49,339 nucleotides of DNA. Source: Thermoplasmatales archaeon. Its GTDB lineage: Archaea; Thermoplasmatota; Thermoplasmata; Methanomassiliicoccales; Methanomethylophilaceae. The DNA lies in contig JAAYZC010000052.1 of NCBI GenBank assembly GCA_012515075.1, forward strand, positions 1-49,339, given 5' to 3'. The translations under genes were made by a program, and so were the position numbers. Below, one piece after another: positions 28,824 through 37,503 of the stretch (the first letter of the stretch is position 1; each line of letters opens with the position of its first letter). The notes beneath the pieces were generated by a model. That model saw nothing but the letters and a program-made list of their open reading frames with translations. It did not search any database and was not told where the DNA came from.

Positions 28824-28871
28824 CCCTCTCTCCCGTCCGTCTATTACCTCGCGCGGCCTGAGTGGACAAAC

Positions 28872-28881
28872 CCTTAATTAG
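28872..28881 (+). promoter_or_regulatory. TATA box for the LarA-HdrD fusion gene
   Basis: CTTAATTAG-type element about 40 nt before the ATG at 28916. A leader of roughly 13 nt would include GGCGGT just before the start. Confidence 0.4.
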
Positions 28882-28915
28882 CAGACCTCTGATTCCGTTA
28901 GGCTTGGCGGTAAAC

Positions 28916-31255
28916 ATGATCGTAGACCTGAAGTACGGCAGGGATGGAGTTCAGAAGATCGAAGTCCCCGATGAGAACTACATCGGCACCTTCTATCCCA
29001 AGGAAGTCGAGTGCAGACCTGCGAAAGAGCTCATAGGCGAGGCCTTGGAAGACCCCATAGGATACAGTTCTCTCGCAGACTTCCTGAAGGGAGGCAAGGA
29101 CATCGTCTTCATAGTGAACGACGGAACACGCCCCACCCCGACCGCTAAGGTGCTGGACGCTCTGTCCGAGAGGATGGACCTGAGGTCCGCCCGGTACCTT
29201 ATAGCCACGGGCACACACAGGGACATGACCGAGGAGGAGTACGACAACGTCTTCGGCTCCCACTACGGTGAGCTGAAGGACAGGATCATAGCCCACGACG
29301 CTAAGAAGTCCGAATGCGTTTATCTGGGTGATTCCAAGAACGGCACCCCGATGGAGGTCAACAGGATAGCGGTGGACGCGGACCGCCTGGTGATAATAAC
29401 CAGCGTCGAACCGCATTACTTCGCCGGATACACCGGGGGGAGGAAGTCGTTCCTTCCCGGAGTGGCCTCATTCAGGACCATAGAGGCCAACCACAGGATG
29501 GCCATGTGCATGGAGGCACAGTCCCTGGTCCTGGAGGGTAACCCGGTACACGAGGACATGATGGATGCCCTCGAGGTGGTCAAGGACAAGGAGATATTCT
29601 CAATACAGATGGTGCTGGACAGGCACCAGAACATCTACAAGGTGGCGGCGGGCAAGCTGAACCCCGCCTTCGAAAGGGCCGTGGTCTGGGCCAACGAGGT
29701 CTTCTCGGTGCCGATACCCGAGAAGGCCGACATAGTGATATCCGTGGCGCCCTACCCAATGGATGTGGACCTCTATCAGTCCCAGAAGGCGCTGGACAAC
29801 GGGAAGTGGGCCCTGAAGGAGGGCGGAAGGATAATAATGGTGTCCAAGTGCCGGGAGGGCATAGGGCATCCCACGTTCCTCGATCAGCTTTCCTGCTCTA
29901 GGGACCCATGTCGGGTTCTGGAGAATCTCAGGGAGGAGTACAAGCTGGGATACCACAAGGCGGCCAAGATGGCGGAGATCGCGACCTGGGCCGAGATATG
30001 GTCGGTGACAGATCTGGACCCCGGGATACTCGAGCGCGCCAACATAAGGCCGTTCCCCTCGGTGGCCGAAGCCCTGGACGAGGCCCTGCGTCAGATACCC
30101 GGCGGCAAGGTCATAGTGCTCATGGACGGCAGCGTGACCATACCCCGGGTTGACGGCAGCACCTTCAGGACCGATCGTCTAGAGGCCGTCAGGAACGCCG
30201 TCAACGTCTGCACCATGTGCGGTTTCTGCAAGAGCGTGTGCCCCTCGTTCAAGGCGATCGGATGGGATTCGGCCCTTTCAAGAGGACGCATAATACTGAC
30301 CTACGGGCTTCTCAACGGGGACATACAGCCCGACGATTCGGTCATGGAGAACATGTATACCTGCACAACCTGTGCCGACTGCGTGAGGAGGTGTCCATCC
30401 AAGGTCGACATAGTCGGCATCATAGAGACCTGCCGCGCGGACCTCGTCAAGAACGGTCACATTCTCCCCAAGCATAAGGAGATAGCCGAGAACGTGATGA
30501 CCGTCGGCAACCCCTTCGGCGAGAAGAAGTCGGTCTCGGAGACGATCGGGAGGGCCCCCAGGAAGGCCAAGGTGGCGTATTTCGCCGGCTGCACCGCAAC
30601 CTACAGGGCCAAGAAGACCTCCGCGGCCACCCTCTCCATACTGGACAAGCTGGGTGTGGACTACACCACGCTCGACGAGACATGCTGCGGGTCCGTCCTC
30701 CAGAGGATAGGCTGGGACAACGACGATGTCGTGAAGCAGATGAGGAAGAACGTGGACGCAATAAAGGCGCTTGGCGTCGAGACCCTGGTCCTCTCCTGCG
30801 CCGGCTGCTACAGGATGTTCAAGCACGAGTACCCCAAGTACGTCGAGGTGCCCTTCGAGGTGCTGCACATCTCCGAGTTCCTGGCAGGCCAGGAGCTGAA
30901 CCTCAGGCCCCTCAGGAAGGTTGCGACCTACCACGACCCCTGTCATCTGGGGAGGCACTGCAATGTCTACGATGCGCCCCGTCAGGTCATAGCCAAGATC
31001 CCCGAGCTCACGTTCAGGGAGATGGAGTACTGCCGCGAGCTGAGCCACTGCTGCGGAGGGGGCGGAGGCGTAAGGTCCGCTTTCCCGGAGGCGTCGAAGA
31101 AGATCGCGGAGACCAGGATGGAGGAGGCGGCATTCGCCGACATGATCATAACGACCTGTCCGTTCTGCGTCAGCAACCTGGAACTCGGAAAGGGCGGCTC
31201 CAAGGTGGAGGTCGTGGATCTCGTCGAGCTGATCGACAGCCTGCTGCTGCCATGA
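28916..31255 (+). CDS. Fusion protein: LarA-like nickel-pincer racemase domain + HdrD/GlcF-like iron-sulfur domain
   Basis: 779 residues. Residues 1 to about 410 match LarA (lactate racemase superfamily, DUF2088). Counterparts of the L. plantarum LarA residues are visible: D69/R72 in NDGTRP, H101 in TGTHRD, H167 in EPHYFAG, the cofactor-bound lysine K177 in GGRKSFLPG, Ni ligand H193 in ANHRM, and Q288/K291 in YQSQKAL. Residues about 428-500 hold two 4Fe-4S motifs (C432-435-438-442 and C483-486-489-493). Two CCG domains follow, with the full Cys sets C559/C590-591/C628/C631 and C676/C712-713/C748/C751, as in HdrD, GlcF and LldE. The start at 28916 (GGCGGT upstream) is preferred over a GTG at 28862 that lies before the TATA box. 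Cofactor-making LarB/C/E genes are not here. Substrate and electron partner are unknown. Confidence 0.85.
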   Translation: MIVDLKYGRDGVQKIEVPDENYIGTFYPKEVECRPAKELIGEALEDPIGYSSLADFLKGGKDIVFIVNDGTRPTPTAKVLDALSERMDLRSARYLIATGTHRDMTEEEYDNVFGSHYGELKDRIIAHDAKKSECVYLGDSKNGTPMEVNRIAVDADRLVIITSVEPHYFAGYTGGRKSFLPGVASFRTIEANHRMAMCMEAQSLVLEGNPVHEDMMDALEVVKDKEIFSIQMVLDRHQNIYKVAAGKLNPAFERAVVWANEVFSVPIPEKADIVISVAPYPMDVDLYQSQKALDNGKWALKEGGRIIMVSKCREGIGHPTFLDQLSCSRDPCRVLENLREEYKLGYHKAAKMAEIATWAEIWSVTDLDPGILERANIRPFPSVAEALDEALRQIPGGKVIVLMDGSVTIPRVDGSTFRTDRLEAVRNAVNVCTMCGFCKSVCPSFKAIGWDSALSRGRIILTYGLLNGDIQPDDSVMENMYTCTTCADCVRRCPSKVDIVGIIETCRADLVKNGHILPKHKEIAENVMTVGNPFGEKKSVSETIGRAPRKAKVAYFAGCTATYRAKKTSAATLSILDKLGVDYTTLDETCCGSVLQRIGWDNDDVVKQMRKNVDAIKALGVETLVLSCAGCYRMFKHEYPKYVEVPFEVLHISEFLAGQELNLRPLRKVATYHDPCHLGRHCNVYDAPRQVIAKIPELTFREMEYCRELSHCCGGGGGVRSAFPEASKKIAETRMEEAAFADMIITTCPFCVSNLELGKGGSKVEVVDLVELIDSLLLP

Positions 31256-32339: not shown

Positions 32340-33116
32340 ATGAGGATCCGCCCTTCCGACAGGGACCGTTTCGACAGGATGAGGAGGGTGGAATGGATGG
32401 ATATGGAGTCAGTGCAGCTCAGGAGATGCCTGATGGTCGGAGCCGGCGCCCTGGGCAACGAGGTCCTGAAGTGCCTGGTGCTATCCGGGTTCCGGGACAT
32501 AACAGTCGTGGACATGGATGAAATCGTTCCGTCCAACCTAAGCAGATGCCTTTTCTTCAGAGAGGAGGATGTAGGAAGGGCCCCAAAGGCGCAGGTGCTC
32601 GCGGAACGGGCCTCATCCCTCGATTCCGCTGTGACCATAAGGCCGGTGGTATCCAGGATACAGGATGCAGAGGATTGGGACTTCGACATCGTGCTCGGGT
32701 GTCTGGACAACATATCCGCCAGACTGCACGTGAACTCCCACGCCAGATATCACGGCGCACCCTATGTGGACGGTGCCACGGACGGCCTGTCGGGAAAAGT
32801 CCACACGGTGCTCCGGGACGGACCCTGCCTGCAGTGCGCCATGAACCGCAGCCACATGAAGGTTCTGGAGAGGAGGTACACCTGCACCGGCAGGGAGGCC
32901 ACTTTGTACTCCCGCCCTCTGGCCGCGGAGATAACCACCACTTCGGTGGTGGCGGCCATGGAGGTCAGGGAGGCCCTCAAGATCGCTTCCGGCAGGGAGG
33001 ACCTCTGCGTAAGAGAGGTGATGTACTACGACGGGATGTCCGGCTCCATCGAGAAGGTGGAGCTGGATGTAGACCCGGGATGTCCCAACCACGGGGACCG
33101 GGAGGCAATAGCATGA
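32340..33116 (+). CDS. E1-like ubiquitin-activating enzyme (ThiF/MoeB/UBA superfamily)
   Basis: 258 residues, one adenylation domain. ATP loop VGAGALGNEV (33-42); D58/D60 in VVDMDEIV; SNLSR (65-69); K83; CLDNISARLHVN (121-132); GATDGLSGKV (145-154). CxxC at C163/C166 pairs with C248/H251 (CPNH) as a likely zinc site, the last ligand changed from the usual Cys. C182 in RRYTCTGRE sits where UBA3/SAE2-type E1s place the thioester cysteine (FPxCT). Expected to adenylate the tail of the neighbouring Ubl and pass it to the E2. The longer frame to 32271 crosses the promoter and is rejected. The stop overlaps the Ubl start (ATGA). Confidence 0.9.
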   Translation: MRIRPSDRDRFDRMRRVEWMDMESVQLRRCLMVGAGALGNEVLKCLVLSGFRDITVVDMDEIVPSNLSRCLFFREEDVGRAPKAQVLAERASSLDSAVTIRPVVSRIQDAEDWDFDIVLGCLDNISARLHVNSHARYHGAPYVDGATDGLSGKVHTVLRDGPCLQCAMNRSHMKVLERRYTCTGREATLYSRPLAAEITTTSVVAAMEVREALKIASGREDLCVREVMYYDGMSGSIEKVELDVDPGCPNHGDREAIA

Positions 33117-33367
33117 CGGTCAGGATAACTGTGAAGAACATAGCGGCGAACGCAACCATGAGGATGGAGGTGGAGCCCCAGGAGACGATGGCAGACGTGA
33201 TCCAATGCGCCGCAGAGTATTGGAGCAAGGATTCGGGAGCGTACATCCTCAAGAAGGGGAAGACGATGCTCCGCGGAGACAGGACCGCAGAGGAGACGGG
33301 CCTGGTGAACGATGACGTGCTGGAACTGATACCCGATCCCGAAGGCGGGGGCAATGGGACTGCCTAA
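33113..33367 (+). CDS. Ubiquitin-like beta-grasp modifier protein with internal diglycine
   Basis: 84 residues. N-terminal strand pair VRITVKNIAANATMRMEV, a helix TMADVIQCAAEYW, then YILKKGKTMLRGDRTAEETG and DDVLELIPDPEGGG: the layout of ubiquitin and of YukD-like and bacterial operon Ubls. The tail is GGGNGTA: three glycines (78-80) followed by four residues, so trimming would be needed to expose a terminal glycine, as for eukaryotic and Caldiarchaeum pro-ubiquitin. The last 14 nt overlap the E2 gene. It is placed between E1 and E2, which supports the role. Confidence 0.85.
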   Translation: MTVRITVKNIAANATMRMEVEPQETMADVIQCAAEYWSKDSGAYILKKGKTMLRGDRTAEETGLVNDDVLELIPDPEGGGNGTA

Positions 33368-33833
33368 GCAGGTCCTCGTGAGGAGGATCAACAACGAGCT
33401 CGGGCAGTGCTCCGAATATCTGGAAGCGGACCTTCCGGCGATACCCGAGGACGCCCGCTTCCCGCTGGAGATCCGCATAGACCTGGTCAACCATCCGGCC
33501 TATGTGTCCGAGGATCGCATGTCGAGGAAGCACGCCTGCAGGCTGATAATATCCGAGGAGTACCCTTTCAGGAAGCCCGAGGCTAGATGGATCACACCGA
33601 TATTCCATCCCAACATAATGATGCCCGAGGACGGAGGGTATGTCTGCCTGAGGACCCTTGACGACTGGTCTTTCGGATCCAGCATGCTGGCCTTCGTCAA
33701 GAGCCTTGAGCACCTCATAGGTGACCCCCGTCCCAAGAACCCCTTCGGAACCGAATCCTGCCTGGCGGCATCCAGGTTCTTCTCCGACAACCCCCTGGGG
33801 ATGGAGATGTCCGTAAGCTACGGGGGGCGCTGA
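33354..33833 (+). CDS. E2-like ubiquitin-conjugating enzyme (UBC fold)
   Basis: 159 residues, the normal size of a single UBC domain. Strand EIRIDLVNHPAY, then YPFRKPEARWITPIFHPNI with the HPN motif (85-87), catalytic C98 in GGYVCLRTLDDW, the tryptophan W105, and SMLAFVKSLEHLIGDP followed by NPF...AASRFF, all in the E2 order. It would take the Ubl from the E1 and attach it to target lysines. The start overlaps the Ubl gene, using GAAGGCGGGG there as ribosome site; the stop overlaps the JAMM start as TGATG. The protein ends in YGGR. Confidence 0.9.
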   Translation: MGLPKQVLVRRINNELGQCSEYLEADLPAIPEDARFPLEIRIDLVNHPAYVSEDRMSRKHACRLIISEEYPFRKPEARWITPIFHPNIMMPEDGGYVCLRTLDDWSFGSSMLAFVKSLEHLIGDPRPKNPFGTESCLAASRFFSDNPLGMEMSVSYGGR

Positions 33834-34342
33834 TGCCCAAGGTGATATCCGCGGCCGGAGAACCTCCGCGGGCGAGGAGGAGAACGGTCGCGGCGGCATC
33901 GCTGTTCGTTTCGGAGGACGCCCTGAACGATATGATATACCACGCGGAAGCCGGCCTGATTGATAAGAAGGAGGTCATGGGGCTGATGATTGGGATGTTC
34001 TACAATGACGGCTCCGGGACCTACGCGGAGGTCACCGGCACGGCCACATCCGATCTCATAGCAAGCAGCACCAGCGTCAGGTTCGACGGCGGGTCCCTGG
34101 AGCCCCTCTTCGATTCCCTGGACGAGATGGAGGAAAACCAATCGGTGGTTGGATGGTATCATTCGCATCCGGGGTTCGGCTGTTTCATGTCCGAGACGGA
34201 TGTGAGGACGCAGGATGGCATATTCGGCGGAGGGACGGGATTCGCGATAGTGATAGATCCCGTAAGAATGGAGATAAAGGCCTTCGACAGCACGCCCCGC
34301 GCGCCGAAGGAGGTCCAGATGATCGTCATGGGCGGGGATTGA
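33833..34342 (+). CDS. JAMM/MPN+ metalloprotease, Rpn11-like deubiquitinase
   Basis: 169 residues. Complete JAMM site: E47 in KKEVMGLMIG, H110/H112 in VVGWYHSHPGFGC, S120, D123 in FMSETDVRTQ. The stretch VVGWYHSHPGFGC followed by (W/F)xS..D..TQ is the pattern of eukaryotic Rpn11 and Csn5, closer than the generic bacterial JAB. A zinc isopeptidase is expected, able to mature the Ubl tail and remove it from targets. Translated through a TGATG overlap with the E2. It ends with no gap before the convergent hexuloisomerase gene. Confidence 0.92.
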   Translation: MPKVISAAGEPPRARRRTVAAASLFVSEDALNDMIYHAEAGLIDKKEVMGLMIGMFYNDGSGTYAEVTGTATSDLIASSTSVRFDGGSLEPLFDSLDEMEENQSVVGWYHSHPGFGCFMSETDVRTQDGIFGGGTGFAIVIDPVRMEIKAFDSTPRAPKEVQMIVMGGD

Positions 34343-34894
34343 TCAGACCCATATGGCATGCCTGTTGCGCATGTCGATCTCGGTAACGCCCAGCCTCTCC
34401 ATCATTGACGGTACCATCGCGTCGAAGAACAGCATGACCGCGTCCTCGAAGACGGTGCCCAGGGGGGCCAGCTCGTGTCTCTCCTCATCATCCGCTATCT
34501 TAAGGGTTATCACGGTGTCCGAAGCCTTGGCGAGCTTGCTGCCGCCCCTCGAGGTTATCGTGACCACATGGGAGCCGAGGCGACGGGCGATCTGCGCCGT
34601 CTGAGTGCCCGAGACGGTCTCTCCCCTGTTGGAGATTATGATGGTGAGGTCGTCCCTGCCTATTATGGGGGTGGTCATGTCACCGACGAAATGCACATCC
34701 AACCCCATCTGGACCAGACGTACCGAGAACAGCTGACCCACCAGTCCGGATCTCCCCGAACCGTACACGAAGATCTTCTTCTTGCTCAGGATGAGGGATA
34801 TGAGCCTCTCTTCAGACTCGGAATCTATGGACCCTATCGCATCGCGGGTACGCTGCAGAAGGAAGTCCACGGATCCTCTGTCCAAATCATTCAC
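34343..34894 (-). CDS. hxlB: 6-phospho-3-hexuloisomerase (SIS domain)
   Basis: 183 residues with one sugar isomerase fold: FVYGSGRSGLVGQLFSVRL, HFVGDMTTPIIG, ISNRGET and the C-terminal GTVFEDAVMLFFDA are typical of PHI. In archaea PHI works with hexulose-phosphate synthase in the reversed ribulose monophosphate route to supply pentoses. The synthase is not in this window. It overlaps the upstream TIM-barrel gene by 8 nt. Confidence 0.9.
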   Translation of the reverse strand: MNDLDRGSVDFLLQRTRDAIGSIDSESEERLISLILSKKKIFVYGSGRSGLVGQLFSVRLVQMGLDVHFVGDMTTPIIGRDDLTIIISNRGETVSGTQTAQIARRLGSHVVTITSRGGSKLAKASDTVITLKIADDEERHELAPLGTVFEDAVMLFFDAMVPSMMERLGVTEIDMRNRHAIWV

Positions 34895-35936
34895 CGCCGG
34901 AGGGGACGCTGTCGGCCTCCTCCTTCTTCTTGGCCTTCAGGGCCTTGGTGGCCCTTTTCGTGAGGACCCTTTCATGTATCACCCTCATGTAGACCGCGTC
35001 ATGCTCCAGAAGAGGGGAACCGGATATCACGGTGGCCTCGGGCTTCATCTCCGTCAGAGCCTCAGCCAGAGGTTCGAACCTCAGATCGCCCTTCTTTATC
35101 GGTGTGAGTTTCCTCTCGTTCCCGTCCGCGTGCTCCACACCGGCGAATGCGGTGTATACCCTGCCGCCGGCGCAGTACGGTTCCACCTGTCCGAGGACGT
35201 CCATGAAGTCCTCCTGTTCCATCAGGGAGCCGTTTGTGCGGGCGTGAAGATGGGGGAAGTTGATCACCGGCACCAGTCCGTCTATGGAATCGCACAGTTC
35301 CAGGATCTGATCCAGGGAGCCGAAGACGTTCTGATGGCCGGAGACCTCTATGCCCAGACGGGTTTCGATGCCCGCCTCCTGCCACCAGTCCATGAGCGCC
35401 TCCAGGTTCTCGGATATGTTCGCATCCGTCTCCTCCTTGGAGAGGGATCCTCCGTAAAGGCCCAGACTGGTGACCACGATATCGCCTCCGAGAGCGTTGA
35501 CCATCCGTCCGGCGTGCCTTATGCTGTCGAAGCAGATGCCCGTTATTTCGCTGTTGGAGCCCAGGTCCATGTAGTACGGGGTGTGCATGGACAGGCTGAC
35601 GTCCAGCCTGCGTGCCATCTTCCCGATGTCGTAGAGGTCCCCGAAGGATTCCGAGATGCCGGAAGGCATCCAGACGAGAACATCATCCTCCATGATGGGC
35701 TCGTCCGTGTCGCAGACAGGCTCATCGTCCCTTATGATCTCAATCACGAACCTATCCTGGATATCCTTTATGGTGAGCCCGACATCCTCTTCCTCAGGAT
35801 ATCCCATTATGGTGCCGGCTCTGACCATCTGTATCTCCAGAGCGGTGAGGCTGAGGTTGTGTACGTCCTCGATTCCGTCTTTGAGGGTGCGTCCTTTGCA
35901 CGAAAGGGGGATGCCAGCGGGGCCGAATCTGATCAT
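34887..35936 (-). CDS. TIM-barrel protein of the AP endonuclease 2 / sugar isomerase family
   Basis: 349 residues. The start MIRFGPAGIPLSCKG, SLSMHTPYYMDLGS, GIEVSGHQNVFGS and INFPHLHARTNG give the metal-binding His/Glu pattern of the endonuclease IV-like xylose isomerase fold common in archaea. An insert (about 50-90) of acidic residues is unusual. The lysine-rich C-terminus may be disordered. Whether it is a DNA repair nuclease or a sugar isomerase cannot be decided; the overlap with hxlB leans to sugar chemistry. Confidence 0.75.
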   Translation of the reverse strand: MIRFGPAGIPLSCKGRTLKDGIEDVHNLSLTALEIQMVRAGTIMGYPEEEDVGLTIKDIQDRFVIEIIRDDEPVCDTDEPIMEDDVLVWMPSGISESFGDLYDIGKMARRLDVSLSMHTPYYMDLGSNSEITGICFDSIRHAGRMVNALGGDIVVTSLGLYGGSLSKEETDANISENLEALMDWWQEAGIETRLGIEVSGHQNVFGSLDQILELCDSIDGLVPVINFPHLHARTNGSLMEQEDFMDVLGQVEPYCAGGRVYTAFAGVEHADGNERKLTPIKKGDLRFEPLAEALTEMKPEATVISGSPLLEHDAVYMRVIHERVLTKRATKALKAKKKEEADSVPSGGE

Positions 35937-36105: not shown

Positions 36106-36468
36106 ATGAACGGACGTTCCAAAACGAATCCTGGTCTCATCGCCCTTGTACAGGACCTGAAGGCGATCGGGAGAGAGAACGGATCTGCTATCTGGCGAGA
36201 CATAGCGCTGAGGCTGGAGAAGCCCCGGCGCAACTGGGCTGAGACCAATCTCAGCAAACTCGAAAGGTATGCCCAGGACGGGGACGTGATAGTCGTCCCC
36301 GGAAAGGTCCTGGCAGCAGGCACGATTAGCAAGAAGATAACCGTCGCGGCCTACGGCTTCTCCGAAGCTTCGCAGGCGGCCATACAGGTGGCCGGCGGAA
36401 GGACGATGACAATACGTGAGCTCGCGGCGGAGAACCCCAAGGGTTCCAACGTCAGGATACTGAGGTGA
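36106..36468 (+). CDS. rpl18e: 50S ribosomal protein L18e
   Basis: 120 residues, archaeal/eukaryotic large-subunit protein. KTNPGLIALVQDLK, WRDIALRLEKPRRNWAETNLSKLERYA and VPGKVLAAG are diagnostic. It heads the conserved cluster L18e-L13-S9-RpoN, in standard archaeal order. The stop is 5 nt before the L13 start. Length is normal. Confidence 0.97.
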   Translation: MNGRSKTNPGLIALVQDLKAIGRENGSAIWRDIALRLEKPRRNWAETNLSKLERYAQDGDVIVVPGKVLAAGTISKKITVAAYGFSEASQAAIQVAGGRTMTIRELAAENPKGSNVRILR

Positions 36469-36473
36469 TCCGA

Positions 36474-36899
36474 ATGGTTACTATAATCGACGGGAAAGGA
36501 CTCATCCACGGAAGGCTTGCGGGAATCGTCGCCAAGAGGATCATGGACGGCGAGGACGTCGTCGTGGTCAACTCCGAATCGATAATCATCACCGGGGAGA
36601 GGGAGATGATATTCGGGGAATTCAAGGCAAAGGTCGACCGCGGGGACGCGACGAAGAGGAAAGGACCCTTCTACCCCCGCAGGGCGGATCTCATGTTCAA
36701 GAGGTGCGTCAGGGGAATGATCCCCTGGAAGAGCACCAGCGGGAGAGAGGCGTACAGGAGGCTCCACGTCTTCGTGGGGGTCCCGAAGCAGTTCGCGGAC
36801 GTCCAGATGGAGAGACCCGAATACGCGGTCAGAGAGATTACCGGTAAATACACAACCCTGGGAGCCGTAGCCAAATTCCTGGGTTCCAACGTGAGGTGA
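36474..36899 (+). CDS. rpl13: 50S ribosomal protein L13 (uL13)
   Basis: 141 residues. IIDGKGLIHGRLAGIVAKR and the central KRKGPFYPRRADLMFKRCVRGMIPWK match archaeal uL13. A GTG at 36465 is in frame but is part of the ribosome site GAGGTGATC; the ATG at 36474 is preferred. It is 4 nt upstream of S9. Confidence 0.97.
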   Translation: MVTIIDGKGLIHGRLAGIVAKRIMDGEDVVVVNSESIIITGEREMIFGEFKAKVDRGDATKRKGPFYPRRADLMFKRCVRGMIPWKSTSGREAYRRLHVFVGVPKQFADVQMERPEYAVREITGKYTTLGAVAKFLGSNVR

Positions 36900-36903
36900 T
36901 CCC

Positions 36904-37302
36904 ATGGAGTGCGTCAACACAAGCGGAAAGAGGAAGACGGCGATCGCCAGGGCGGTCGTGAAGGAAGGTACCGGCAAGGTCATCGTCAACAAGGTCCCTA
37001 TAGACATATACGGACCCGAACTCGCGAGGCTCAAGATAAAGGAGCCTCTGGGCCTGGCGCCCGAGATGGCGGCGAAGGTCGATATCAGCGTCACCGTGAA
37101 CGGCGGCGGGGTCATGGGGCAGGCGACCGCGGTAAGGACCGCGATAGCCAGGGGCCTCGTGGACTATTACAAGGACGAAGAGCTCGAGGCTATGTTCAGA
37201 GCCTACGACAGGACCCTCATCATCAACGATGACAGAAGGAAGCTGCCGAAGAACCCTCTGGGACACGGTGCTCGTGCCAAGAAGCAGAAGTCTTACCGTT
37301 GA
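36904..37302 (+). CDS. rps9: 30S ribosomal protein S9 (uS9)
   Basis: 132 residues. N-terminal TSGKRKTAIARAVVKEGTGK, YYKDEELEAMFRAYDRTLI and the basic C-terminus GHGARAKKQKSYR, whose final arginine reaches the P-site tRNA. All are typical. GAGGTGATG spacing connects it to RpoN 9 nt downstream. Confidence 0.97.
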   Translation: MECVNTSGKRKTAIARAVVKEGTGKVIVNKVPIDIYGPELARLKIKEPLGLAPEMAAKVDISVTVNGGGVMGQATAVRTAIARGLVDYYKDEELEAMFRAYDRTLIINDDRRKLPKNPLGHGARAKKQKSYR

Positions 37303-37311
37303 GGTGATGGA

Positions 37312-37503
37312 ATGATCATACCTGTGAGATGTTTCACCTGCGGAAAAGTCGTCGGAAGCGCCTACCCCGAATACGTCAGGCGCGTAGGTATGGGGGAGGA
37401 TCCTCAGAAGGTCCTCGACGATCTCGGTCTCGACAGGTACTGCTGCCGCAGGATGATAATATCCCATGCGGATCTCATAGGGGAGATCGCCCCCCTCGGA
37501 TAA
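37312..37503 (+). CDS. rpoN: DNA-directed RNA polymerase subunit N (Rpb10-like)
   Basis: 63 residues. Zinc-binding CFTCGK near the N-terminus and the adjacent cysteine pair in RYCCRRMI, the atypical zinc bundle of Rpb10. N-terminus [15 protein letters not shown] is invariant in archaea. It is the last protein gene of the operon; tRNA-Pro(GGG) follows after 27 nt. Confidence 0.97.

Follow-up and report, generated by a model that had tools for sequence, protein, structure and literature searches.

A compact E1-Ubl-E2-JAMM operon of Methanomassiliicoccales and a RING-like candidate E3 encoded beside the proteasome alpha gene

Archaeal systems that combine E1, E2, RING and Rpn11 homologues are already known. 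For operons of the Caldiarchaeum type, in vitro work has shown conjugation by E1, E2 and a RING protein, processing of pro-ubiquitin by Rpn11 and deconjugation (PMC5654768, PMC6043591). Archaeal E2-bearing ubiquitin-like systems have so far been studied in uncultivated Aigarchaeota and Asgard archaea, and for Euryarchaeota a 2015 survey lists UCH and RING proteins in a single marine group II genome only (PMC4327156). Fuchs et al. 2018 (PMC6043591) describe a group of non-Aigarchaeal JAMMs (JAMM-3) that is nearer to Rpn11 and CSN5 than JAMM-1 and JAMM-2, already report operons with Ub, E1 and E2 homologues for JAMMs nearer Rpn11, and credit E3s only to Caldiarchaeum and Asgard. The pathway described here is a variant of the Caldiarchaeum/Asgard kind, all four operon proteins being homologous to those of Caldiarchaeum-type operons, and its JAMM likely belongs to the JAMM-3 group. 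In the open-access literature we found no description of the pathway in Methanomassiliicoccales, of a proteasome-linked RING-like protein or of lineages with a dead JAMM; open-access papers on ubiquitin in Methanomassiliicoccales or Methanomethylophilus concerned only genetic-code expansion and unrelated work.

The window, i.e. the whole stretch of 49,339 nucleotides that was analysed, belongs to a 79% complete genome assembly of 0.99 Mb from a Methanomassiliicoccales archaeon (phylum Thermoplasmatota), in which the operon lies on contig 42; archaeal genes for ribosomal proteins and RNA polymerase near the operon agree with this origin. Four overlapping genes on the plus strand encode, in this order, a compact E1, a ubiquitin-like modifier (Ubl), an E2 and a JAMM protein, whose start codon overlaps the stop codon of the E2 gene (TGATG at 33831-33835). 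The initial annotation had noted the JAMM and missed the complete operon of which it is a member.

The JAMM gene (33833-34342, +) encodes an Rpn11-like JAMM/MPN+ metalloprotease of 169 aa, as assigned from Pfam, PDB matches, predicted fold and tree. Both KEVMGLMIG and SVVGWYHSHPGFGCFMSETDVRTQ are present in the translated ORF, and the motif E...HSHP-x6-S-x2-D is intact with E47 (33971-33973), H110 (34160-34162), H112 (34166-34168), S120 (34190-34192) and D123 (34199-34201). In the profile search that had been proposed, Pfam JAB matched with 53.3 bits and an E-value of 2.8e-14, far beyond chance. Among PDB sequences, yeast and human Rpn11 match best (E-values of 5e-18 to 1e-16), followed by Caldiarchaeum Rpn11 (1.9e-12) and CSN5 (about 1e-9), and these matches span about 125 residues, covering the metal site and beyond. 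The predicted structure (pLDDT 82, pTM 0.80) has Rpn11, CsRpn11 and CSN5 as its nearest neighbours. The full motif in an MPN fold places the protein among the JAMM/MPN+ metalloproteases of the Rpn11/CSN5 type. The Rpn11/Csn5-type active site claimed from the sequence is thus borne out by the complete motif and by VVGWYHSHPGFGC, a run of 13 consecutive residues that is the same in human PSMD14, and the proposed match of EVMGLMIG to the Rpn11 glutamate region by an EVMGLM-G stretch common to the window protein and Rpn11/CSN5. Counted up to TQ, 17 of 23 residues are identical to human PSMD14. The wording that the similarity is "almost residue for residue" holds for the active site only, because overall identity to human Rpn11 is 35%. 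The protein stops directly past the MPN core, and the C-terminal region by which Rpn11 proper is anchored in the lid beside Rpn8 is absent.

The E1-like protein (32340-33116, +; 258 aa) has the ThiF fold (Pfam ThiF, 155 bits). Its start at ATG 32340 was picked from relatives, the mechanical ORF starting at TTG 32271. A GAGALG nucleotide loop, a CxxC...CxxH zinc site and the Cys within YTCTG (codon 32883-32885) are kept across intact loci, and no C-terminal ubiquitin-fold extension was found on the window protein. The score lies under every NCBIfam equivalog cut-off for ThiF, MoeB and UbaA (UbaA: 91.2 against 450 bits), and the top PDB matches are the adenylation domains of UBA7, UBA1 and UBA3. 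The E2 homologue (33354-33833, +; 159 aa) reaches 43.4 bits against Pfam UQ_con at a cut-off of 27; it carries an HPN motif (33606) and the catalytic Cys98 (codon 33645-33647), which is aligned with the Cys of PDB E2s (E-values of about 1e-8) and is kept in all E2s that were read.

The modifier itself (33113-33367, +; 84 aa) was recognised by predicted structure and Foldseek. Its C-terminus reads IPDPEGG-GNGTA, with the Gly-Gly pair at Gly78-Gly79, a predicted mature end at Gly79 (codon 33347-33349) and a tail of GNGTA. The AF2 model (pLDDT 87) matches ubiquitin, SUMO, NEDD8, Hub1 and the Caldiarchaeum Ub at a TM-score of about 0.8. As a single sequence the protein reaches Pfam ubiquitin only below threshold (E-value 0.13). 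A profile built from Thermoplasmata Ubls only (A4) reaches single ubiquitins weakly, at about 0.05, and attains about 1e-11 only with polyubiquitin chains, through the summing of their repeats; another profile (A2) is biased to ubiquitin because Aigarchaeal and Asgard ubiquitins were mixed in. For the kinship of the Ubl with ubiquitin, the match of the modelled fold is consequently the better evidence.

The neighbouring genes, named by inspection, served as synteny markers. A SIS-domain protein outside the pathway (34343-34894, -) is convergent with the operon and is followed by a TIM-barrel-type protein (34887-35936, -) and by a cluster for ribosomal L18e, L13 and S9 and the RNA polymerase subunit RpoN (36106-37503, +). 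On the other side, a 797-aa ORF (28862-31255, +) joins a LarA-like part and an Fe-S/CCG-domain part, also named by inspection; several relatives (L081, L189, L200, L201, L205) encode the two parts in separate ORFs that overlap or adjoin.

E2 is present in 97 of 147 Methanomassiliicoccales genomes, which cover all six families and 28 of the 30 genera; the corresponding figures are 98 of 300 for the class and 54 of 243 for the phylum. The JAMM accompanies the E2 almost everywhere. Across 40 loci drawn from many families, the genes hardly ever depart from the order E1-Ubl-E2-JAMM. The SIS gene lies directly 3' of the JAMM in nearly all Thermoplasmata loci read, and the downstream order SIS, TIM-barrel, L18e-L13-S9-RpoN is shared by Methanomassiliicoccales and several other Thermoplasmata families. 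Because gene order and flanking synteny are conserved, we regard this as an old housekeeping locus and not as a defence island or a recent import. Judged from these comparisons, the pathway goes back to the ancestor of Methanomassiliicoccales and probably to that of much of the class Thermoplasmata. All typical Thermoplasmata Ubls read end in PDPEGG (PDPQGG in part of one genus), and this invariance points to strict selection on the GG end. Tails of 1-15 residues past GG were found in 30 of 52 copies and none in the other 22; since many Ubls need no trimming, taking the modifier off is a likelier conserved job of the JAMM than processing it.

A few loci are organised differently. In L099, L101 and L103, from two other families, the Ubl forms the C-terminal end of a zinc-ribbon and DUF835 protein of 355-377 aa, the JAMM measures 629-884 aa and the E1 follows the JAMM. 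Two genomes placed in the class (G160 and G170; loci L087, L088, L090 and L091), of 3-5 Mb on a single contig, carry Helarchaeota-like sets of E1, E2 and JAMM, and G160 additionally has a Ubl-JAMM pair of the Thermoplasmata type. As these genomes are 81% complete and contain runs of N, their classification or assembly should be treated with caution.

For the phylogeny of the JAMM, a named panel was taken from 84,980 genomes, human Rpn11 serving as reference row, and its best matches came from Asgard, Caldarchaeum/Aigarchaeota, Thermoplasmata and a few cyanobacteria. Reference sequences of human PSMD14, CSN5 and BRCC36 were verified against the PDB, and maximum-likelihood trees were built, with AU tests on an alignment of 150 columns. 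The Thermoplasmata JAMMs form one clade (support 96/91), as do those of Aigarchaeota and Asgard (99/95) and Rpn11 with CSN5. A branch with 100/99 support separates the window protein, Rpn11, CSN5, BRCC36 and the Asgard/Aigarchaeal JAMMs from ten generic Prok-JAB proteins, among them a second JAB of the window's own genome (L219); long branches meet at this split, which leaves the exact attachment of the JAMM unsure. The placement among generic RadC or JAB-like proteins that would have spoken against the initial annotation did not appear in this tree, and the distance from HvJAMM-type enzymes is in line with the NCBIfam desampylase model, which gives 41.8 bits at a cut-off of 130.

The same annotation held that the protein bears on the origin of Rpn11, and this is supported in part. 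The JAMM does group with Rpn11, CSN5 and BRCC36, but a specifically close tie to eukaryotic Rpn11 did not emerge, as the AU tests rejected none of the three arrangements (p-AU 0.37 for eukaryotes with Thermoplasmata, 0.61 for eukaryotes with Asgard/Aigarchaeota and 0.44 for Thermoplasmata with Asgard/Aigarchaeota). The large clades are sound; an alignment of 150 columns cannot order eukaryotes, Asgard/Aigarchaeota and Thermoplasmata. The Thermoplasmata sequences broaden the sampling for the question of Rpn11 origin, which a domain as short as the JAMM does not settle.

Related gene sets were seen in other groups. In Calditenuaceae, a single ORF of 272-276 aa that matches both E2 and Ubl models (L166:4130-4960, L171:4139-4960, L179:4139-4960, L180:4142-4960) adjoins a JAMM that groups nearer the Thermoplasmata JAMMs, and Calditenuis fumarioli carries this second operon plus a Caldarchaeum-type JAMM (L131). 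Filamentous cyanobacteria of the genera Okeania (L144, L156, L172), Trichodesmium (L143) and Oscillatoria (L181) encode a JAMM with GWYHSHP adjoining an E2, in most loci also with E1 and Ubl; these JAMMs branch near those of Thermoplasmata with modest support.

A zf-RING_2 scan of whole genomes found no RING E3 within the E1-Ubl-E2-JAMM operon. The scan did yield a near-threshold match (24.0 bits, under the Pfam cut-off of 27.3) to a zinc protein encoded on contig 35 of the window's own genome (G000:C35:27194-27721, equal to L235:3194-3721; - strand), where its gene sits just upstream of that for proteasome alpha (psmA) and before RNase P POP5. The protein has an N-terminal hydrophobic segment, a RING-like CxxC-x11-CxC-x4-H-x2-C-x6-CxxC motif and zinc ribbons, and is probably membrane-anchored; in some genomes of family f5 one Cys ligand of the RING pattern is substituted. 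Neighbours of the gene in the window's family are RNase P POP5, psmA, SBDS, Rrp4 and Rrp41/42, and in other families it is co-directional with psmA at a distance of 1.5-5 kb. This position next to psmA suggests a link to protein breakdown. Subunits of the 20S proteasome were found in 12 of 12 genomes tested, whether the pathway was present or absent.

The distribution of this gene follows that of the operon. In 147 genomes of the order, a wide gap lies between strong matches, defined by an E-value below 1e-20 and coverage of the RING, and weak matches limited to the zinc ribbons. E2 and RING occur together in 91 genomes and are both absent from 48; six have E2 only, all of them at most 87% complete, and two have RING only. 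Among the 76 genomes that are at least 90% complete, 50 have both, none has E2 only, one has RING only and 25 have neither (Fisher 3e-19, a value that overstates the case because the genomes are related). The one exception at this completeness (G122) is also without the neighbouring TIM-barrel orthologue, so that a missing contig is the probable cause. Outside the order the RING model matches many E2-less genomes, where the matching protein is often large, at about 1500 aa, and since such paralogues confound co-occurrence at class level, only the order-level test was used. E2 and RING were lost jointly within genera g4, g6 and g20, throughout g9 and in g22; counted without a species tree, these losses amount to a minimum of three separate events and probably to five. 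In four E2-less genomes, two of them of genus g6, the RING gene is cleanly missing between an HdrA-like gene and POP5-psmA, with HdrA and psmA kept, and two E2-bearing genomes of g6 have it at this very site. As genetics by comparison, the case for the RING-like protein as the candidate E3 of the pathway is strong.

Losses of the pathway are also piecemeal. Four genomes of genus g6 (L080, L081, L082, L083) keep E1, Ubl and E2 together with a JAMM that has no HxH and has mostly lost the Glu region too; these dead JAMMs are still open, recognisable genes of 133-154 aa, and the Ubls of all four genomes end exactly at GG. E2-less genomes of g6 and g9 carry, between the zinc-ribbon and SIS genes, small relics derived from Ubl, E1 or JAMM (L200:4717-5360, L201:4286-4902, L202:3775-4394, L203:3541-4611, L204:3308-4401). 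Some are dead JAMMs, others degenerate E1s or Ubl-like proteins without Gly-Gly, and they may be reused or decaying. In another genome (G027) the interval at the operon site is empty. Genomes lacking both E2 and RING are not smaller (1.5-1.9 Mb), and the lineage can do without the pathway, as near-neighbour genomes that have none demonstrate. Lineages that lose it stepwise, the JAMM dying first in one genus and E1, E2 and RING going elsewhere, constitute natural controls.

Our main reading, to which we assign a probability of roughly 0.8, is that these genes form a minimal archaeal pathway for conjugation and deconjugation of a ubiquitin-like modifier, with the RING-like protein as E3, a system inherited from the ancestor of Methanomassiliicoccales and probably of much of Thermoplasmata. 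The genes, folds, intact catalytic residues, overlaps, synteny and joint losses with the RING gene come from the sequences themselves. We infer each chemical step, the E3 activity, the substrates and any link to proteasomal breakdown. The cycle proposed below follows from homology with the reconstituted Caldiarchaeum system. Where a tail such as GNGTA is present, the JAMM would trim it and expose PDPEGG. The compact E1 would adenylate the Gly-Gly end with ATP and form a thioester with it through its conserved Cys, the Ubl would be handed to Cys98 of the E2, and the E2 would attach it to lysines with the RING-like protein as E3, which might bring the reaction to the membrane or close to the proteasome; the JAMM would then take the Ubl off again. 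In eukaryotic E1 the C-terminal region recruits the E2. The window E1 is about 100 aa shorter than that of Caldiarchaeum and has no such region, so the hand-over presumably differs. Only tentatively do we extend this reading to a real ubiquitin-proteasome-like pathway in Methanomassiliicoccales, cultured methanogens among them, in which E1, E2 and a membrane-anchored RING E3 encoded in the proteasome operon would mark proteins with the PDPEGG modifier so that PAN/20S removes them, with recycling of the modifier by the Rpn11-like JAMM. If true, it would be a ubiquitin branch outside Asgard and Aigarchaeota whose coupling of E3 and proteasome is written into the genome organisation.

Several other explanations have to be weighed against the main reading. 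Archaeal SAMPs serve both sulfur transfer and protein modification in Haloferax, and as the compact E1 has the ThiF fold and these archaea hold other ThiF-family proteins, E1 and Ubl could be imagined to supply sulfur or to SAMPylate proteins without a true E2 cascade, with the JAMM as desampylase. This is improbable in view of the UQ_con E2 in every operon, whose HPN and Cys are conserved, of the large shortfalls of E1 and JAMM against the ThiF, MoeB, UbaA and desampylase cut-offs, of top structural matches of the Ubl that are of the ubiquitin and not the ThiS/MoaD type, and of the separate generic JAB in the same genome. Still less probable is a Bil-like or type II CBASS-like anti-phage module. 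Bacterial defence operons are likewise built from E1, E2, Ubl and JAB, and PADLOC gave weak matches of the window E1 to E1-E2 models; it gave none for Ubl and E2, however, and only weak ones of the JAMM to generic JAB models. Moreover, the locus is single-copy and lies in a ribosomal-gene synteny that is fixed over the order and beyond, its presence varies together with that of a gene in the proteasome/exosome operon, and it contains no nucleotidyltransferase or effector. The 13 residues shared with human Rpn11 might bring to mind a recent horizontal transfer of the JAMM from a eukaryote, which we consider practically negligible, being already contradicted by a Thermoplasmata clade (96/91) that excludes eukaryotes and by vertical synteny throughout the order, besides the low overall identity.

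A different doubt concerns the RING-like protein, which could be a zinc protein associated with the proteasome or RNase P, not an E3, and lost for some other reason shared with the operon. Its sub-threshold RING score, the RING-like paralogues that E2-less genomes of other orders carry and the non-independence of related genomes all speak for this. Nevertheless we hold it to be rather unlikely, given that the near-perfect co-occurrence recurs within genera g4, g6 and g20, that the RING gene is deleted precisely while psmA, POP5 and HdrA are retained, and that genomes without both are not reduced in size.

With the RING-like protein as E3, an E1-E2-JAMM operon that seemed to be without one gains a candidate. 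Some Methanomassiliicoccales can be grown, which makes archaeal ubiquitin-like tagging for protein breakdown directly testable. GluC cuts after the Glu of PDPEGG and would leave a Gly-Gly remnant on the modified lysine, which standard K-GG enrichment should catch.

Compared with haloarchaeal SAMP/UbaA/HvJAMM1, the Thermoplasmata system shares a Ubl, a ThiF-family E1 and a JAMM protease, but the haloarchaeal system has no E2, and the window E1 and JAMM fail the UbaA and desampylase models. Bacterial Bil and type II CBASS operons likewise bring together E1, E2, Ubl and JAB; they differ in their domain architectures, whereas the locus described here has no convincing PADLOC match and stands in housekeeping synteny. 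With eukaryotic Rpn11 (PSMD14) and CSN5, the window JAMM has in common the JAMM motif, the VVGWYHSHPGFGC and EVMGLM-G stretches and the MPN core fold, but it is a free-standing protein of 169 aa without the C-terminal lid- or signalosome-binding region. The closest likeness is to the operons of Caldiarchaeum subterraneum and Asgard archaea, which also cluster homologous Ubl, E1, E2 and Rpn11-like JAMM genes, with pro-Ubl tails after GG and a RING protein; processing and removal of the modifier by the JAMM are predicted for Thermoplasmata by this homology. In most Thermoplasmata loci the E1 measures 252-292 aa, in contrast to 383-407 aa in Aigarchaeota/Asgard, and a long E1 with a C-terminal ubiquitin-like domain was not found in those Thermoplasmata loci, only some Aigarchaeota/Asgard E1s matching the Ubl model. 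In Thermoplasmata the JAMM gene shares operon and strand with the other three genes but is divergent in the Caldiarchaeum/Asgard operons, and the Thermoplasmata modifier ends in PDPEGG and the JAMMs form a clade of their own. Finally, unlike in Caldiarchaeum/Asgard, the RING-like gene lies outside the operon with the proteasome alpha gene, and in comparison to the JAMM-3 report it provides a candidate E3 beyond these two groups.
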